Source of the DNA: Pyrinomonadaceae bacterium
GTDB lineage: Bacteria; Acidobacteriota; Blastocatellia; Pyrinomonadales; Pyrinomonadaceae
Length of the DNA stretch: 64,000 bases
Reading direction: 5' to 3'
NCBI GenBank assembly: GCA_025054715.1
Contig: JANWYH010000001.1
Coordinates: 370,001-434,000 of the forward strand
The translations under genes and the position numbers were made by a program. Shown one piece after another: positions 32,302 to 37,810 of the stretch (positions are counted from its first letter, which is position 1; the number at the start of each line of letters is the position of its first letter). Under the pieces are notes generated by a model. That model saw nothing but the letters and a program-made list of their open reading frames with translations. It did not search any database and was not told the origin of the DNA.

Positions 32302-32330
32302 TTTTGCTTGGTGCTTGAAATTTTGACCTT

Positions 32331-32466
32331 TCAGGTGCCGCTTTCAGTAGTTCCTTATTGGGACTGGTTAGCGGAGAATAGGGAAGATGGGTGAAAGTCC
32401 CACGCGGTCGCGCCACGGTGAGGTGACTTTTTGTTAGAGTCCGAAGCCCGGAGACCTGCCTGAAAG
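32331..32466 (+). ncRNA. Cobalamin riboswitch 1 (aptamer)
   Basis: The conserved core AGGGAAGATGGGTGAAAGTC, CCACGCGGTCGCGCCACGGTGA and AGTCCGAAGCCCGGAGACCTGCC matches the cobalamin riboswitch consensus. CTTTCAG at 32341-32347 pairs with CTGAAAG at 32460-32466 as the closing stem. It senses adenosyl- or methylcobalamin and sits upstream of btuF, with an intrinsic terminator after it. Confidence 0.93.
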
Positions 32467-32524
32467 GGTAACCCGTTGAATGCCTCGCGTCAAGGCATGC
32501 GGGCTGAAGAGAATGAGTTTTTGA

Positions 32525-32588
32525 AGGCTCTATTCTTTTTGCCTGCTTGCTTTGAGGCAGGCGAAAAAAGAGGAATAGAGCCTTTTTG
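32525..32588 (+). terminator. Riboswitch-controlled intrinsic terminator
   Basis: Outer stem of 11 perfect pairs, AGGCTCTATTC at 32525-32535 with GAATAGAGCCT at 32573-32583, continued by an inner TTTTTGCCTGC/GCAGGCGAAAAA stem, then a T5 run at 32584-32588. It lies between the aptamer and btuF, pointing to transcription attenuation at high B12. Confidence 0.88.
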
Positions 32589-32606
32589 TTTTGATTGGCT
32601 AAAGTG

Positions 32607-33485
32607 ATGCTTAAAAGGTCGGTTTACTTACTATTTTTGGTTTTTCTTTTGCTGCTGAGCTGCGAGCAAGCGCATCGGTCGGTATCAGAGTTCGATATTT
32701 TTGTTGACGATCTTGGAAGGCAAGTAAAGCTACCTAAAAGGGTTGAGAGGGTTGTCTCGCTTGCTCCGAGCCTTACGGAAATAATTTTTGCAGTTAAGGC
32801 TGAAGATAAGCTTGTCGGCGTAACTACTTATTGTGATTTTCCGGAACCAGCAAGAGAGATTGAGAAGGTTGGAGATACTATAAGACCAAGCCTAGAGAGA
32901 ATTATTTCCTTAAAGCCAGATGTAGTTTTTGTGTCGACTGCATCTCAGCTTGAAGGTTTTGTGAGACTTTTAGAGCAAAAAGGGATAAGTGTTTTTGTGA
33001 CCAATCCTAGTAGCATTGAAAAAATTTTGGAAAATATAGAAGTTATAGGAAAGATAGTTGAAAGAGATAATGAGGCGCAGAGTTTAGTTGAGCAGTTGAG
33101 AAAACGCATAGAAAGAGTTGAAGAGAAAAGCAAAGATTTAAGTAGACCGAGAGTATTCGTTCAGATAGATAAATCTTTATTTACTGTCGGTAAGGATTCT
33201 TTTATAACTGATTTAATAAGGAAGGCAGGTGGAATTTCTGTAACTGAAAACATAGAAAATTCTTATCCGAAAGTTAGCAAAGAGACGGCTTTATCGCTGA
33301 ATCCTGAAGTGATAATTCTGCCGGACAGTCCAGATAACGGCGAGCCGAACGAGGTTTTTAGCAATTCTGATGCCGTAAGAAATGGCAGAGTCTATAAGAT
33401 AAATTCAGATGTTCTGTCAAGGCCTGGTCCTCGCATTGTTGATGCTCTCGAGCAAGTTTCTGAAATGATTCATGGCAAGCAGTAA
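32607..33485 (+). CDS. btuF: B12 ABC transporter substrate-binding lipoprotein
   Basis: A 292-residue cobalamin-type binding protein from ATG 32607 (TTG 32595 is an in-frame alternative). The signal peptide ends in a lipobox LLSC, so it should be a lipoprotein. The fold motifs LPKRVERVVSLAPSLTEIIF and LKPDVVFVS are those of the BtuF/FhuD family with two lobes joined by a long helix. The riboswitch and following permease/ATPase support B12 rather than iron-siderophore. Confidence 0.92.
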   Translation: MLKRSVYLLFLVFLLLLSCEQAHRSVSEFDIFVDDLGRQVKLPKRVERVVSLAPSLTEIIFAVKAEDKLVGVTTYCDFPEPAREIEKVGDTIRPSLERIISLKPDVVFVSTASQLEGFVRLLEQKGISVFVTNPSSIEKILENIEVIGKIVERDNEAQSLVEQLRKRIERVEEKSKDLSRPRVFVQIDKSLFTVGKDSFITDLIRKAGGISVTENIENSYPKVSKETALSLNPEVIILPDSPDNGEPNEVFSNSDAVRNGRVYKINSDVLSRPGPRIVDALEQVSEMIHGKQ

Positions 33486-33490
33486 AAGTG

Positions 33491-34465
33491 ATGAAACATA
33501 GTAGGCAAACATTTTTTTTTAGTCCACAGATTTTCGGAATTTTGCTGCTAGTTAGTTTCTTTGTCGCTCTTATATTTGCAGTTTTGCTTGGGAGTGAAAA
33601 TTTAAGGTTTTCGAATTTAAGCCGGACGGAGGAGAGAATACTTTTTGATGTGCGGATTCCGCGAGTTTTGCTTGGGGCGGTTGTTGGAGCGAGTCTTGCC
33701 ATATCGGGGGCTGGTTTGCAGGCACTACTACGTAACCCTTTAGCAGAGCCCTATCTTTTAGGTGTTTCAAGTGGTGCAGCCTTAGGCACGGCTATTTCTT
33801 TTGTTGTATCAGTTGATTTGGAACTAATACGTCCAATCTTTGCTTTTGCGGGGGCTAGTCTAGCGACTTTTGCAGTTTATCAGATGGCTAAATCGAAAGC
33901 TGGTATGAGCGTGGAAAGGCTTGCGCTTTCAGGAATAGTTGTTACTACGATGCTGTCTTCGATAATTGTGCTACTTACGACGTTGCTCGATTCGACTCGT
34001 CTTAGAAGCTTTACCTTCTGGCTTCTTGGAGACTTATCTCAAGGAACGAAAGTAGGTCTTTACGTTGTTTCGTTTGCCGCTTTGCTTGGCTTATTTGTTA
34101 TGGTGTCGCAGGCTAGAGCACTGAATCTGATGATGATAGGCGAAAGAGACGCTTTCGATTTCGGTGTTGAAGTAAATCGAGTAAAATTCTTAGTTTTTAT
34201 TACGTCGTCGGCTTTGGTTGGAGTTTCAGTTTCTGCGAGTGGTTCTATTGGTTACGTCGGGTTAGTCGTTCCGCATCTAGTTCGTCTTTCCGTAGGCAGT
34301 GATAATCGTTATGTTCTGCCATTTTCAATGCTTGCTGGAGCAGTTTTTGTGGTCGTTGCTGATACGATTGCGCGAGTTGCTATTGCGCCCAGAGAATTGC
34401 CTGTAGGTGCAATCACGGCTATTATCGGTGCTCCTATGTTTATTTATCTTCTTAAAAGAACATGA
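33491..34465 (+). CDS. btuC: B12 ABC transporter permease
   Basis: A 324-residue FecCD/BtuC-type permease from ATG 33491, with about ten membrane segments. The N-terminal RIPRVLLGAVVGASLAISGA and NPLAEPYLLGVSSGAALG motifs and the later GSIGYVGLVVPHLVRLSVG motif (cytoplasmic coupling helix for the ATPase) are characteristic. It starts just after btuF and overlaps btuD by ATGA. Confidence 0.93.
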   Translation: MKHSRQTFFFSPQIFGILLLVSFFVALIFAVLLGSENLRFSNLSRTEERILFDVRIPRVLLGAVVGASLAISGAGLQALLRNPLAEPYLLGVSSGAALGTAISFVVSVDLELIRPIFAFAGASLATFAVYQMAKSKAGMSVERLALSGIVVTTMLSSIIVLLTTLLDSTRLRSFTFWLLGDLSQGTKVGLYVVSFAALLGLFVMVSQARALNLMMIGERDAFDFGVEVNRVKFLVFITSSALVGVSVSASGSIGYVGLVVPHLVRLSVGSDNRYVLPFSMLAGAVFVVVADTIARVAIAPRELPVGAITAIIGAPMFIYLLKRT

Positions 34466-35292
34466 TTGATGTAAGAAACGTTTGCGTTGCTTATGATGAT
34501 TTTGAAGTGATAAAGGGAGTCTCATTTTCAGTTGAGGCTGGGAAGATGGTTTTTCTTCTAGGGGCTAACGGCTCAGGAAAAAGTACTATTTTGAAAGCTT
34601 TAAATGGCAGCCTACCGATCGCAAAAGGAGAAATTTTATTTGAGGCAAAGCCAATACAAAAATTTTCAAGGCTTGAAATAGCTCGACGGATAGCAGTAGT
34701 TGCACAAGAAAGCGAAACGAGGTTTCCGATAACCGTTCAGGAGTTTGTTCTTTCGGGAAGATATGCATTTAGTTCAGCTTTTAGTTTCGATACGGAAGAG
34801 GATTTAGAAGTAGCTACTTGGTGTATGAAGCTTTGCGATTTATCAGGGTATGAAGCGAGGCTAATGAATCAGCTTTCTGGGGGTGAGCGGCAAAGAGCCG
34901 TTCTCGCTAGAGCATTTGCCACACAAGCGCCTGTGCTGATACTTGATGAGCCAACAAATAATCTGGATTTGCTACATCAGATTTCGCTGTTTCAGCTAGT
35001 CAAGGAGCGTTGTAAAAATAGTCTTTCTTGTGCAGTTATTGTGACTCATGATTTGAATCTTGCTTCTGAGTTTGCTGATGAGATTGTCTTGCTTAAAAAA
35101 GGAGAAATGATAGCGAAAGGTGAGCCGAAGCAAGTTTTAACAGAAGAGAACTTACAGGATGCTTTTGGCATAAAGGTTTTACTGGATGAAAATCCAGTGA
35201 GTAAAAAAACGAGAGTAACTTTGATCTGTGAAAATATGATCGGATCGTTAAGGGAACGCAGTGAAAATCTGCGACTGCCCGCGCAACTGTGA
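34462..35292 (+). CDS. btuD: B12 ABC transporter ATP-binding protein
   Basis: A 276-residue ABC ATPase: Walker A GANGSGKST (residues 34-42), Q-loop VVAQESE, signature LSGGERQR, Walker B VLILDEP, and the switch His in VTHD. The C-terminus continues about 25 residues beyond the usual ending (VLLDENP), and its last codons, from about 35241, are part of the second riboswitch. Start overlaps the btuC stop. Confidence 0.93.
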   Translation: MIDVRNVCVAYDDFEVIKGVSFSVEAGKMVFLLGANGSGKSTILKALNGSLPIAKGEILFEAKPIQKFSRLEIARRIAVVAQESETRFPITVQEFVLSGRYAFSSAFSFDTEEDLEVATWCMKLCDLSGYEARLMNQLSGGERQRAVLARAFATQAPVLILDEPTNNLDLLHQISLFQLVKERCKNSLSCAVIVTHDLNLASEFADEIVLLKKGEMIAKGEPKQVLTEENLQDAFGIKVLLDENPVSKKTRVTLICENMIGSLRERSENLRLPAQL

Positions 35293-35413
35293 AGGCGAAA
35301 AGAAGGTACTCTGTCGAGATGACAGAAAAGCCACTGCTCAGAAAAGAGTGGGAAGGCGTACCTTCAGGCTTGATAAAAAGCCTAATGCCTAAGTCAGGAT
35401 ACCTTACGATCCG
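35241..35413 (+). ncRNA. Cobalamin riboswitch 2, overlapping the end of btuD
   Basis: The core GGGAACGCAGTGAAAATCTG, CGACTGCCCGCGCAACTGTGA, GCCACTG and AAGTCAGGATACC fits the cobalamin consensus. The outer stem is CGGATCGT 35241-35248 with ACGATCCG 35406-35413, and a variable arm GAAGGTAC/GTACCTTC encloses the GCCACTG segment. It controls the BtuB-like receptor. Its first about 50 bases lie inside the btuD coding sequence (stop at 35290-35292). Confidence 0.92.
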
Positions 35414-35422
35414 AAGCTTCAA

Positions 35423-35451
35423 CTTTTCCGCGTCGGGCGGAAAAAGGGAGG
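35423..35451 (+). promoter_or_regulatory. Expression-platform hairpin next to btuB ribosome site
   Basis: CTTTTCCG 35423-35430 can pair with CGGAAAAAG 35438-35446, ending at the GGGAGG ribosome site (35446-35451) eight bases before ATG 35459. No T-run follows, so control of translation is likelier than of termination (inference). Confidence 0.55.
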
Positions 35452-35458
35452 AAAAAAT

Positions 35459-37810
35459 ATGAAGAGAAAGATAGGGTTAATGATTTTTGTATTCGCGTTG
35501 TCGGTGAGCGTTTTTGCTCAGAAGGTTACAATCAGGTTAGTTGAAAAAGGTAAACCTGTTGCCAACGAAAAAGTTAGATTAGTATCGGCAACAGCAGTTT
35601 TCGAGTTTCAAACTGATGCAGAAGGAAATATCGAGGCGCAGCTTTCCGATGGTAGCTACCTTGTAAGCTACGGTGATAAGACAGGCATTCTAACGATAAG
35701 AAATGGTCAAGTTGCATCTTTTGAGATAAATGAAGTAGTTGTGGTTTCTACGAACACTCTTCAGTCTATTGGAGAAGTTTCAAAGACTGTAAGCATAATT
35801 GATGGGTCACAAATTAGAGATAGACAAGAATTTTCTCTTGCTGACTTGCTGAGAACGGTTCCAGGATTTCGCATTCAACAGTTAGGCGGTTTTGGACGAC
35901 TTGCTAGCGTAAAGACGCGAGGGCTTAGGAATCAGGATACAGCCGTTTTGATTGATGGCGTGCGTTTTCGGGACGCTGCTTCCATTAATGGGGATGCTAC
36001 GGCTTTCTTAGCTGACTTTACCTTAACAGATATTTCTAGAGTGGAGATTATGCGCGGTTCGGGCTCTTCTGTTTATGGAACGAATGCTATAGGAGGAACA
36101 ATAGACTTACAAACTTCAAGACCCGAATCAGGCATAAACGGAAGACTTGGATTAATGCTTGGCGGTTATGGTCTTTCTCGATTTGATTCCGTTTTCGGTG
36201 ACGGAAACGAAAAATTTGCTTATAGGCTTGGCGCTTCTAGAACGGTTTACACAAGCGGAATTGACGGTCAAGACAATGCCCATAACACGAACTTTCAATC
36301 GAGACTTGAATTCAATCCGACGAAACTAACCAATTTTTCAGCAAAATTTTTCATTTCAGATGCTTTTGTTAGGTTAAACTCTAGTCCGGATACCATCGGA
36401 CCTTTACCGCCGACAAATGCTGTCGTAATCAAAGCGGTTCCGCTTTCTCGCTCTGAGCTAAGAAGGTATGAAAATGGAACACCTGTTAGCCAGCTGAATC
36501 GAGGAAACGCTAATTTTATTCCAGATGCAAACGATCCAGACAGCACGCAGAAATCAAAGTTTTTTAATGCTCAAGTTTCCTTTACTCAGGTCGTTACGGA
36601 TAGATTACTTCTCAAAGCTTTTTACAATGGGCTCAAAACTTCTCGTAAGAATGAAAACGGCGTTCTTGGAATTGGGTTTCAGAGCGCTTCGACCTCCATT
36701 TTTGATGGTCTAATTCAGACTGCACAAGTCAGGCTCGATTGGACGCCAAATAGGTTTCATGAGATTACCTTTGGTTATGAGTTCGAGCATGAAAAGTATG
36801 GTAATGATGGTTTTACGCCTACGGGAACGGGTAATTTCTTTACTCGGGCTTATCAATCAAGCAATACTCTGTTTGCTCAGGATTTGATTAGGCTTCTCGA
36901 AGGAAAATTAACCGTAGCTTTAGGTGCTAGGTTTCAAACCTTTAATTTGGAAGAGCCGAAGTTTAGTCGAACAAATGCACCTTACCAAAACCTGTCACTA
37001 AGTGATCCTCCAAACGCTTATACTTTTGATGGTTCGGCTTCTTATTTCATTTCGGCAACAAAAACCAAACTGCGCGCTCATGCTGGAACTGGGTTCAGAG
37101 TCCCTAGCCTTTATGAAAGGTTCGGAAGCTTTTTCAGTTCGTTCTCGCAAAGCTTTACGGCTTTAGGCGATCCATATCTTAAACCGGAAAGGTCTTTCAC
37201 CTTTGACGTAGGTCTAGAGCAATATCTTTTTGATAGCAGAGCAAAGCTTTCCGCCGTTTACTTCTACACGACTCTAAAAGAGGTAATAGGATTTGGTAGC
37301 CCTGTTCCTAACATCGGTTCGACACAACGCCCCTTTGGTGGATACTTTAATACAAAAGGTGGTATTTCAAGAGGGGCAGAGTTTACGGCAGATGTGAAAA
37401 TTACTGAGCTTACAACGTTATTGATGTCTTACGCCTACACAAATAGCGATCAAAGACAGCCTCAAGTAGCAGGAAGCGGAATAATCAGAACCCTTGCTGT
37501 TCCAGAGCATCAGTTCACTCTGGTCGCAACTCAGAAATTAAAGAACTTCCTAGTTAATTTCGATTTTCTTGCAACTAGCAACTACCTTGCTCCAATCTTC
37601 AGCAATTCGGTCTTCAGAAATTACATTTATGAATTTAATGGAAATCGAAAAGCTGATTTGACCGTTGGGTATAGCTTTCCGTCCGTGAATGAAAGGATTC
37701 GTTTACGACTTTTTGGGACTGTAGAAAATCTTTTCAACCAAGAATACTATGAGAACGGCTTTCGAACCTTTGGTCGCTATGGGCGAATAGGGATTAGTTT
37801 CGGATTCTAG
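35459..37810 (+). CDS. btuB: TonB-dependent outer-membrane receptor, BtuB-like
   Basis: A 783-residue receptor. After a signal peptide (residues 1-20) come an unusual N-terminal carboxypeptidase-regulatory-like beta domain (about 21-95: LVEKGKPVANEKVRLVSATA), a plug domain (LLRTVPGFRIQQLGGFGRLA, VEIMRGSGSSVYGTNAIGGT) and a 22-strand barrel ending in the terminal aromatic motif GISFGF. A TonB box is not obvious, perhaps VVVVST near residue 96. The cobalamin riboswitch in front makes cobalamin or cobinamide the likely substrate. Confidence 0.92.
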   Translation: MKRKIGLMIFVFALSVSVFAQKVTIRLVEKGKPVANEKVRLVSATAVFEFQTDAEGNIEAQLSDGSYLVSYGDKTGILTIRNGQVASFEINEVVVVSTNTLQSIGEVSKTVSIIDGSQIRDRQEFSLADLLRTVPGFRIQQLGGFGRLASVKTRGLRNQDTAVLIDGVRFRDAASINGDATAFLADFTLTDISRVEIMRGSGSSVYGTNAIGGTIDLQTSRPESGINGRLGLMLGGYGLSRFDSVFGDGNEKFAYRLGASRTVYTSGIDGQDNAHNTNFQSRLEFNPTKLTNFSAKFFISDAFVRLNSSPDTIGPLPPTNAVVIKAVPLSRSELRRYENGTPVSQLNRGNANFIPDANDPDSTQKSKFFNAQVSFTQVVTDRLLLKAFYNGLKTSRKNENGVLGIGFQSASTSIFDGLIQTAQVRLDWTPNRFHEITFGYEFEHEKYGNDGFTPTGTGNFFTRAYQSSNTLFAQDLIRLLEGKLTVALGARFQTFNLEEPKFSRTNAPYQNLSLSDPPNAYTFDGSASYFISATKTKLRAHAGTGFRVPSLYERFGSFFSSFSQSFTALGDPYLKPERSFTFDVGLEQYLFDSRAKLSAVYFYTTLKEVIGFGSPVPNIGSTQRPFGGYFNTKGGISRGAEFTADVKITELTTLLMSYAYTNSDQRQPQVAGSGIIRTLAVPEHQFTLVATQKLKNFLVNFDFLATSNYLAPIFSNSVFRNYIYEFNGNRKADLTVGYSFPSVNERIRLRLFGTVENLFNQEYYENGFRTFGRYGRIGISFGF

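Follow-up and report, generated by a model that had tools for sequence, protein, structure and literature searches.

The stretch of DNA analysed here (the window) comprises 64,000 nucleotides from a member of the Pyrinomonadaceae, and carries on its forward strand a B12-uptake operon with the order RS1, btuF, btuC, btuD, RS2 and a btuB-like receptor gene, RS1 and RS2 being cobalamin aptamers (Table 1). These two are the only RF00174 matches in the genome (G000; 2.45 Mb). The stop codon of btuC overlaps the start of btuD, and the end of btuD lies within RS2.

Table 1. Genes and RNA elements of the B12-uptake operon (window coordinates)
Feature	Position	Strand	Basis or remark
First cobalamin aptamer (RS1), 5' of btuF	32316..32477	+	RF00174, 75.9 bits
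Hairpin resembling a terminator, with UUUUUGUUUU after it; probable expression platform of RS1	32523..32585	+	Fold
btuF-like substrate-binding protein	32595..33485	+	NCBIfam NF002894 BtuF 3.8e-37 and others; all matches below curated cut-off except the TroA_like subfamily
btuC-like permease	33488..34465	+	NF007081 BtuC 2e-75, below curated cut-off
btuD-like ATPase, 276 aa	34462..35292	+	Residues 257-276 read from the aptamer
Second cobalamin aptamer (RS2)	35228..35425	+	RF00174, 75.7 bits
P1 of RS2, 5' strand, within btuD	35241..35248	+	Perfect complement of 35406-35413; cognate P1 test
AGGGAA core block of RS2, within btuD	35251..35256	+	Sequence and RF00174 match
L5 of RS2 (GCCCG), within btuD, kissing partner of L13	35277..35281	+	Co-variation with L13, 42 loci
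btuD stop (TGA), inside the conserved CAACUGURA motif of RS2	35290..35292	+	Sequence, frame
P1 of RS2, 3' strand, between btuD and btuB	35406..35413	+	Complementarity, fold, cognate P1 test
CUUC able to pair with GAGG of the btuB Shine-Dalgarno	35417..35420	+	Folding
P13 hairpin (P13/L13)	35424..35444	+	Folding
L13 (CGGGC), complement of L5	35434..35438	+	Sequence, L5-L13 co-variation
btuB Shine-Dalgarno (GGGAGG)	35446..35451	+	7 nt 5' of ATG 35459
btuB-like TonB-dependent receptor, 783 aa	35459..37810	+	TIGR01779 TonB-B12 3.2e-34; TIGR01785 TonB-hemin 1.5e-39; both below curated cut-off

The match of RS2 to the RF00174 covariance model (E 7.4e-17) is well above the gathering cut-off of 31.5. 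Its P1 stem is made of eight exact pairs, CGGATCGT with ACGATCCG, which enclose the core, and the stretch folded in isolation reaches -88.6 kcal/mol (z -6.7), a value equalled by none of 200 shuffles. By these features RS2 is an ordinary cobalamin riboswitch and a regular member of its family, predicted to bind a corrinoid. Counting from P1, the btuD coding sequence takes in 52 nt of it, comprising the 5' strand of P1, the AGGGAA block, the P4 hairpin and L5. The model match, the exact complementarity of the stem and the reading frame up to the TGA bear out the initial annotation, which had the aptamer begin, with its outer stem, inside btuD.

The CAACUGURA motif supplies a stop in one frame and can in this way cap a gene which runs into the aptamer; motifs resembling it occur in 71 of 92 anchored aptamers. 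A built-in stop in all frames was not found among the aptamers that could be anchored (92 of 142): one frame was closed in 84% as against 53% of shuffles, and the other two were closed less often than in shuffles.

In a set made up of the window and 29 relatives, the BtuD proteins closest to that of the window have RVTTIY or a similar sequence as their C-terminus, at residue 256, and the codon after it is TAA, TAG or TGA. In an alignment of ten, the window protein reads RVTLIC and then ENMIGSLRERSENLRLPAQL, a GAA codon standing where the nearest relatives often have TAA or TAG. BtuD had been described as about 25 residues longer than usual; the extra tail is confirmed by the alignment of C-termini, and its size is corrected to 20 residues. 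In a structure model the ATPase fold is confident up to approximately residue 250, while the tail is of low confidence, mean pLDDT falling by tens of residues through 77 and 51 to 41 at the end. When the native stops of the other 48 loci in the set of 49 were removed in silico, the next in-frame stop was often within about 20-60 codons, so that an extension of 20 codons is unremarkable. Residues 257-276 are probably a tolerated tail, and as judged from the aligned genes the extension is specific to this lineage. An error of base calling or assembly might also have abolished the stop, since the sequence TGTGAAA contains, at this very position, a TGA in the next frame and the extension is seen in one genome only; we regard this as very improbable, given that there is no homopolymer at the site and that the genome, assembled into 23 contigs, is 99% complete.

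That the coding part of RS2 is constrained as RNA follows from comparisons across related loci. The strands of P1 pair with their own partners at a mean of -14.5 kcal/mol versus -9.0 kcal/mol for swapped partners (49 loci; L065, in which no B12 box was found, was left out), and the own partner is the single best one in 17 of the 49, the window included. L5 and L13 are complementary in the window and pair in 41 of 42 loci. The closing position of this kissing loop, formed by the base after GCCC and the base before GGGC, is A-U in 23, G-C in 15, G-U in three and a T-C mismatch in one. None of 2000 permutations reached the observed P1 value (49 loci) and none of 10000 gave an equally good closing position (42 of 49 loci), although both counts overstate significance because the related sequences are not independent. 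The GGGC loop was missing by pattern in the remaining seven loci; six of these have GCGUGG loops which are by eye complementary to CCACGC of L5, and in one the contig ends at that place. Changes on both sides of L5-L13 are direct support for a constraint on pairing, despite the kinship of the sequences. Both pairings being constrained, the last codons of btuD encode RNA pairs. In the outer stem, where covariation had been sought, cognate duplexes beat swapped ones, and the claim that the RNA dictates the BtuD tail is upheld for P1 and L5 alike.

The overlap itself is not shared by related operons. A core pattern 3' of btuD was found in 50 of 81 loci (80 named loci and the window), the 31 dropped by the pattern including some truly without an aptamer and others with a divergent one. 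In the 49 relatives the core begins 12 to 192 nt after the btuD stop, several at 12-31 nt (for L126 the figure is 19 or 31 nt, two scripts having anchored it differently), compared with -40 nt in the window, which is the sole case among the 50 pairs in which the frame passes the core. P1 starts within a few bases of the btuD stop in five relatives (L129, L128, L094, L096 and L133), and the window therefore lies at the far end of a range of tight packing. The nearest relative (G001), the only genus mate compared, has its btuD stop at 256 and no aptamer behind btuD, btuB starting about 36 nt further on; a second aptamer was looked for in this genome and not found. In another relative (L028) btuD and btuB share ATGA.

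The slot between btuD and btuB is variously occupied in the Pyrinomonadaceae, by the long RF00174 type in some and by the short AdoCbl-II type (RF01689) in others, the kissing loop being kept (L012, L091, L094, L115). In L011 a hairpin, GCGAUGGGC, still precedes the receptor gene 3' of btuD; cmscan found no aptamer there, and the hairpin is possibly the remnant of a riboswitch.

Same-strand frames which end inside an aptamer were surveyed in 142 cobalamin aptamers of the phylum, namely the best 30 matches of the class, the best 30 of the phylum, 80 further listed matches of the phylum and the two of the window, a sample biased towards the better-scoring aptamers. Seventeen have an open frame ending past model position 8, window btuD included. 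Apart from window btuD, which was typed separately, eight of the 17 were searched against Pfam, and lpxD was the sole match. Five frames (L183, L201, L210, L217, L220) were excluded ahead of the family search since their G+C content is higher at first than at third codon positions, as in shadow frames, and three (L149, L160, L163) because they are short. The two supported overlaps among 142 aptamers are accordingly a floor and not a rate, in view of the high-scoring sample and the eight frames set aside.

The second case lies in a genome (G058) from a family other than that of the window but within its class, where the frame of lpxD (L054 457-1671; Pfam LpxD 2.2e-22) extends into a cobalamin aptamer as far as the core. 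The TGA of lpxD is 11 nt beyond the start of the GGGAA block, in the P4 region; the P1 of this aptamer (-22.8 kcal/mol) is partly coding, and the gene which follows specifies a BtuB-like receptor (TIGR01779 2.9e-28, below cut-off). In a sister genus (G245) the gene order is as in G058, but the lpxD stop falls 14 nt before the start of the model. Judged from these loci, genes have come to run into an aptamer on no fewer than two occasions, in one of which the gene has no connection with B12. The lpxD parallel speaks more for a stop lost beside an aptamer lying close by than for a purposeful link between transporter and receptor. The initial annotation had proposed that translation of btuD is tied to sensing for btuB; as an evolved link this fares poorly, the other 49 btuD-aptamer pairs stopping short of the core and the independent parallel having the unrelated lpxD upstream.

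Whether ribosomes cross RS2 at all depends on where the btuB transcript begins. The + strand between btuD and btuB was scanned for terminator-like sites and none was found, nor is there an excess of promoters before btuB (two matches versus 1.0 expected by chance), which makes co-transcription of btuD and btuB plausible. If btuB were expressed mainly from a promoter of its own in late btuD, ribosomes would never cross the aptamer, and a promoter-like TTGGCA-17-GAAAAT is indeed situated at 35165-35193, just 5' of RS2. The match overlaps, however, the codons of the conserved VLLDENP stretch, and matches in such number are close to chance expectation; the short spacing of the two genes in the genus mate, with no aptamer between them, and the shared ATGA of L028 argue against it as well. 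We consider such a promoter distinctly improbable as the main source of btuB transcripts.

The two riboswitches appear to differ in their expression platforms. Downstream of RS1 the segment 32520-32592 folds at -38.1 kcal/mol (z -6.46) into a long hairpin followed by a U-run, and a longer fold displays an alternative pairing; a simple terminator scan did not report this hairpin. Attenuation of transcription is the probable mode of RS1. With respect to RS2, P13/L13 ends just 5' of the btuB GGGAGG, and L13 adjoins the ribosome site throughout the loci listed for the P1 test. In nested folding the GAGG of the window is paired at 0.86-0.98. Sequestration of the Shine-Dalgarno was rejected as evidence of a conserved feature, its pairing across relatives being 0.60 versus 0.56 in shuffled controls and above control in 28 of 48 loci. 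The hairpin which had been held to suggest translational control of btuB does exist beside the ribosome site, but predicted pairing of that site across relatives is not above that in shuffles; for this reason the case for a translational mode of RS2 is made by where P13/L13 lies and by published homologues. According to excerpts of one report (PMC10653944), P13 of E. coli btuB and of env8HyCbl is stabilised by the kissing loop, which favours the hairpin at the ribosome-binding site. With RS1 in front of btuF, the operon thus appears to hold a transcriptional and a P13/L13-type riboswitch in series.

We think it likely that RS2 is a B12 riboswitch of ordinary type lying tight against btuD, an operon gene which has lost its stop, a matter of tight packing rather than a designed switch. 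The aptamer would have occupied the gap between btuD and btuB, close up against the gene before it, an arrangement that many relatives share; loss of the stop after residue 256 in the window lineage would have let the frame continue for 20 codons into RS2, to end at the TGA of its CAACUGURA motif. The operon would be under dual control, RS1 acting by transcription termination before btuF and RS2 acting on btuB through P13/L13 beside the Shine-Dalgarno: with B12 bound, L5 would kiss L13 and the hairpin would bar ribosomes from btuB. The overlap would be neutral.

We might alternatively suppose that ribosomes gate the riboswitch, a sharper version of what the initial annotation had proposed. A ribosome with a stop codon in its A site covers roughly 15 nt on each side, and L5 lies 9-13 nt 5' of the btuD stop, within this footprint. 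A ribosome at the stop would thus sit on L5, which makes gating mechanically possible: on finishing btuD it would unfold P1 and cover L5, L5 and L13 could not kiss, and btuB would be on for as long as btuD is translated. Since btuD is itself under RS1, scarcity of B12 would then open btuB twice. The constraint on L5-L13 pairing is in keeping with this, as are two precedents cited here from excerpts of the reports. Removing the start of an upstream ORF in the M. tuberculosis metE aptamer raised expression >10-fold while B12 sensing persisted (PMC11260477), and in Salmonella mgtQ releases the mgtB ribosome site (PMC8092293). Against it stand the lack of conservation among the other 49 btuD-aptamer pairs, the presence of lpxD upstream in the parallel case and the ability of the aptamer to refold between ribosomes. 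Moreover, the GAGG was still approximately 0.8-0.9 paired when all RNA 5' of 35305 was blocked in nested folding; freeing of the Shine-Dalgarno by the ribosome-covered stretch was thus rejected in a computation which does not represent kissing loops, and any coupling must go through the L5-L13 loop or P1. Gating of this kind is unlikely in our judgement. The broader proposition, that the last ribosomes of an upstream operon gene serve as a second signal for the B12 riboswitch controlling the following gene, each ribosome terminating on btuD blocking the kissing loop which shuts btuB, we hold to be improbable. Were gating true, the separate lpxD origin would make translation of the upstream gene a general and evolvable tuner of the riboswitch response; that overlaps arose twice independently within a single class could also mean that usefulness is the reason why they are tolerated. 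Re-initiation from the btuD stop seems unlikely given the distance, btuB being about 167 nt away.

Whatever its origin, the arrangement is one in which the core of a riboswitch, and not merely its flank, is at the same time coding sequence belonging to the gene before it; this is seen in one bacterial class at two loci whose gene contexts are unrelated. It offers a naturally occurring test of how translating ribosomes and a ligand sensor use one and the same RNA, and it is a warning that gene ends beside riboswitches may bear tails dictated by the RNA.

In the open-licence literature we found reports of upstream ORFs in or beside riboswitches, an example being a preQ1-like element of Listeria (PMC12519234, seen in excerpt), and none in which a complete upstream gene has its end within a cobalamin aptamer. 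Two further papers, PMC5243855 and PMC9788540, proved on inspection of excerpts to concern other matters. The AdoCbl-II elements of relatives resemble RS2 in their position between btuD and btuB and in their neighbouring genes, but have a short core and no long P6 arm, whereas RS2 is of the long RF00174 type. As with mgtQ and mgtB, translation in one part of the operon could bear on the ribosome site of the next gene; the excerpted account of that system (PMC8092293) describes a dedicated 8-aa ORF and no riboswitch aptamer, unlike btuD and RS2. The metE and ppe2 B12 riboswitches of M. tuberculosis also hold an ORF and share their RNA between ribosomes and ligand, yet there, as far as the excerpts of PMC11260477 describe it, a short upstream ORF starts inside the leader, while at RS2 it is a complete preceding gene whose 3' end extends into the aptamer from the 5' side. 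RS2 also resembles E. coli btuB and env8HyCbl, RF00174 members in which L5 and L13 form a kissing loop and which in the excerpted descriptions (PMC10653944, PMC9600662) agree with RS2 in the aptamer blocks, P1, L5, the location of P13/L13 just 5' of the Shine-Dalgarno and a btuB-like target; RS2 differs from them in that the 5' half of its aptamer also codes for protein, as part of the operon gene before it. The arrangement of RS2 and btuD is thus an unusual variant, and the riboswitch itself is regular.
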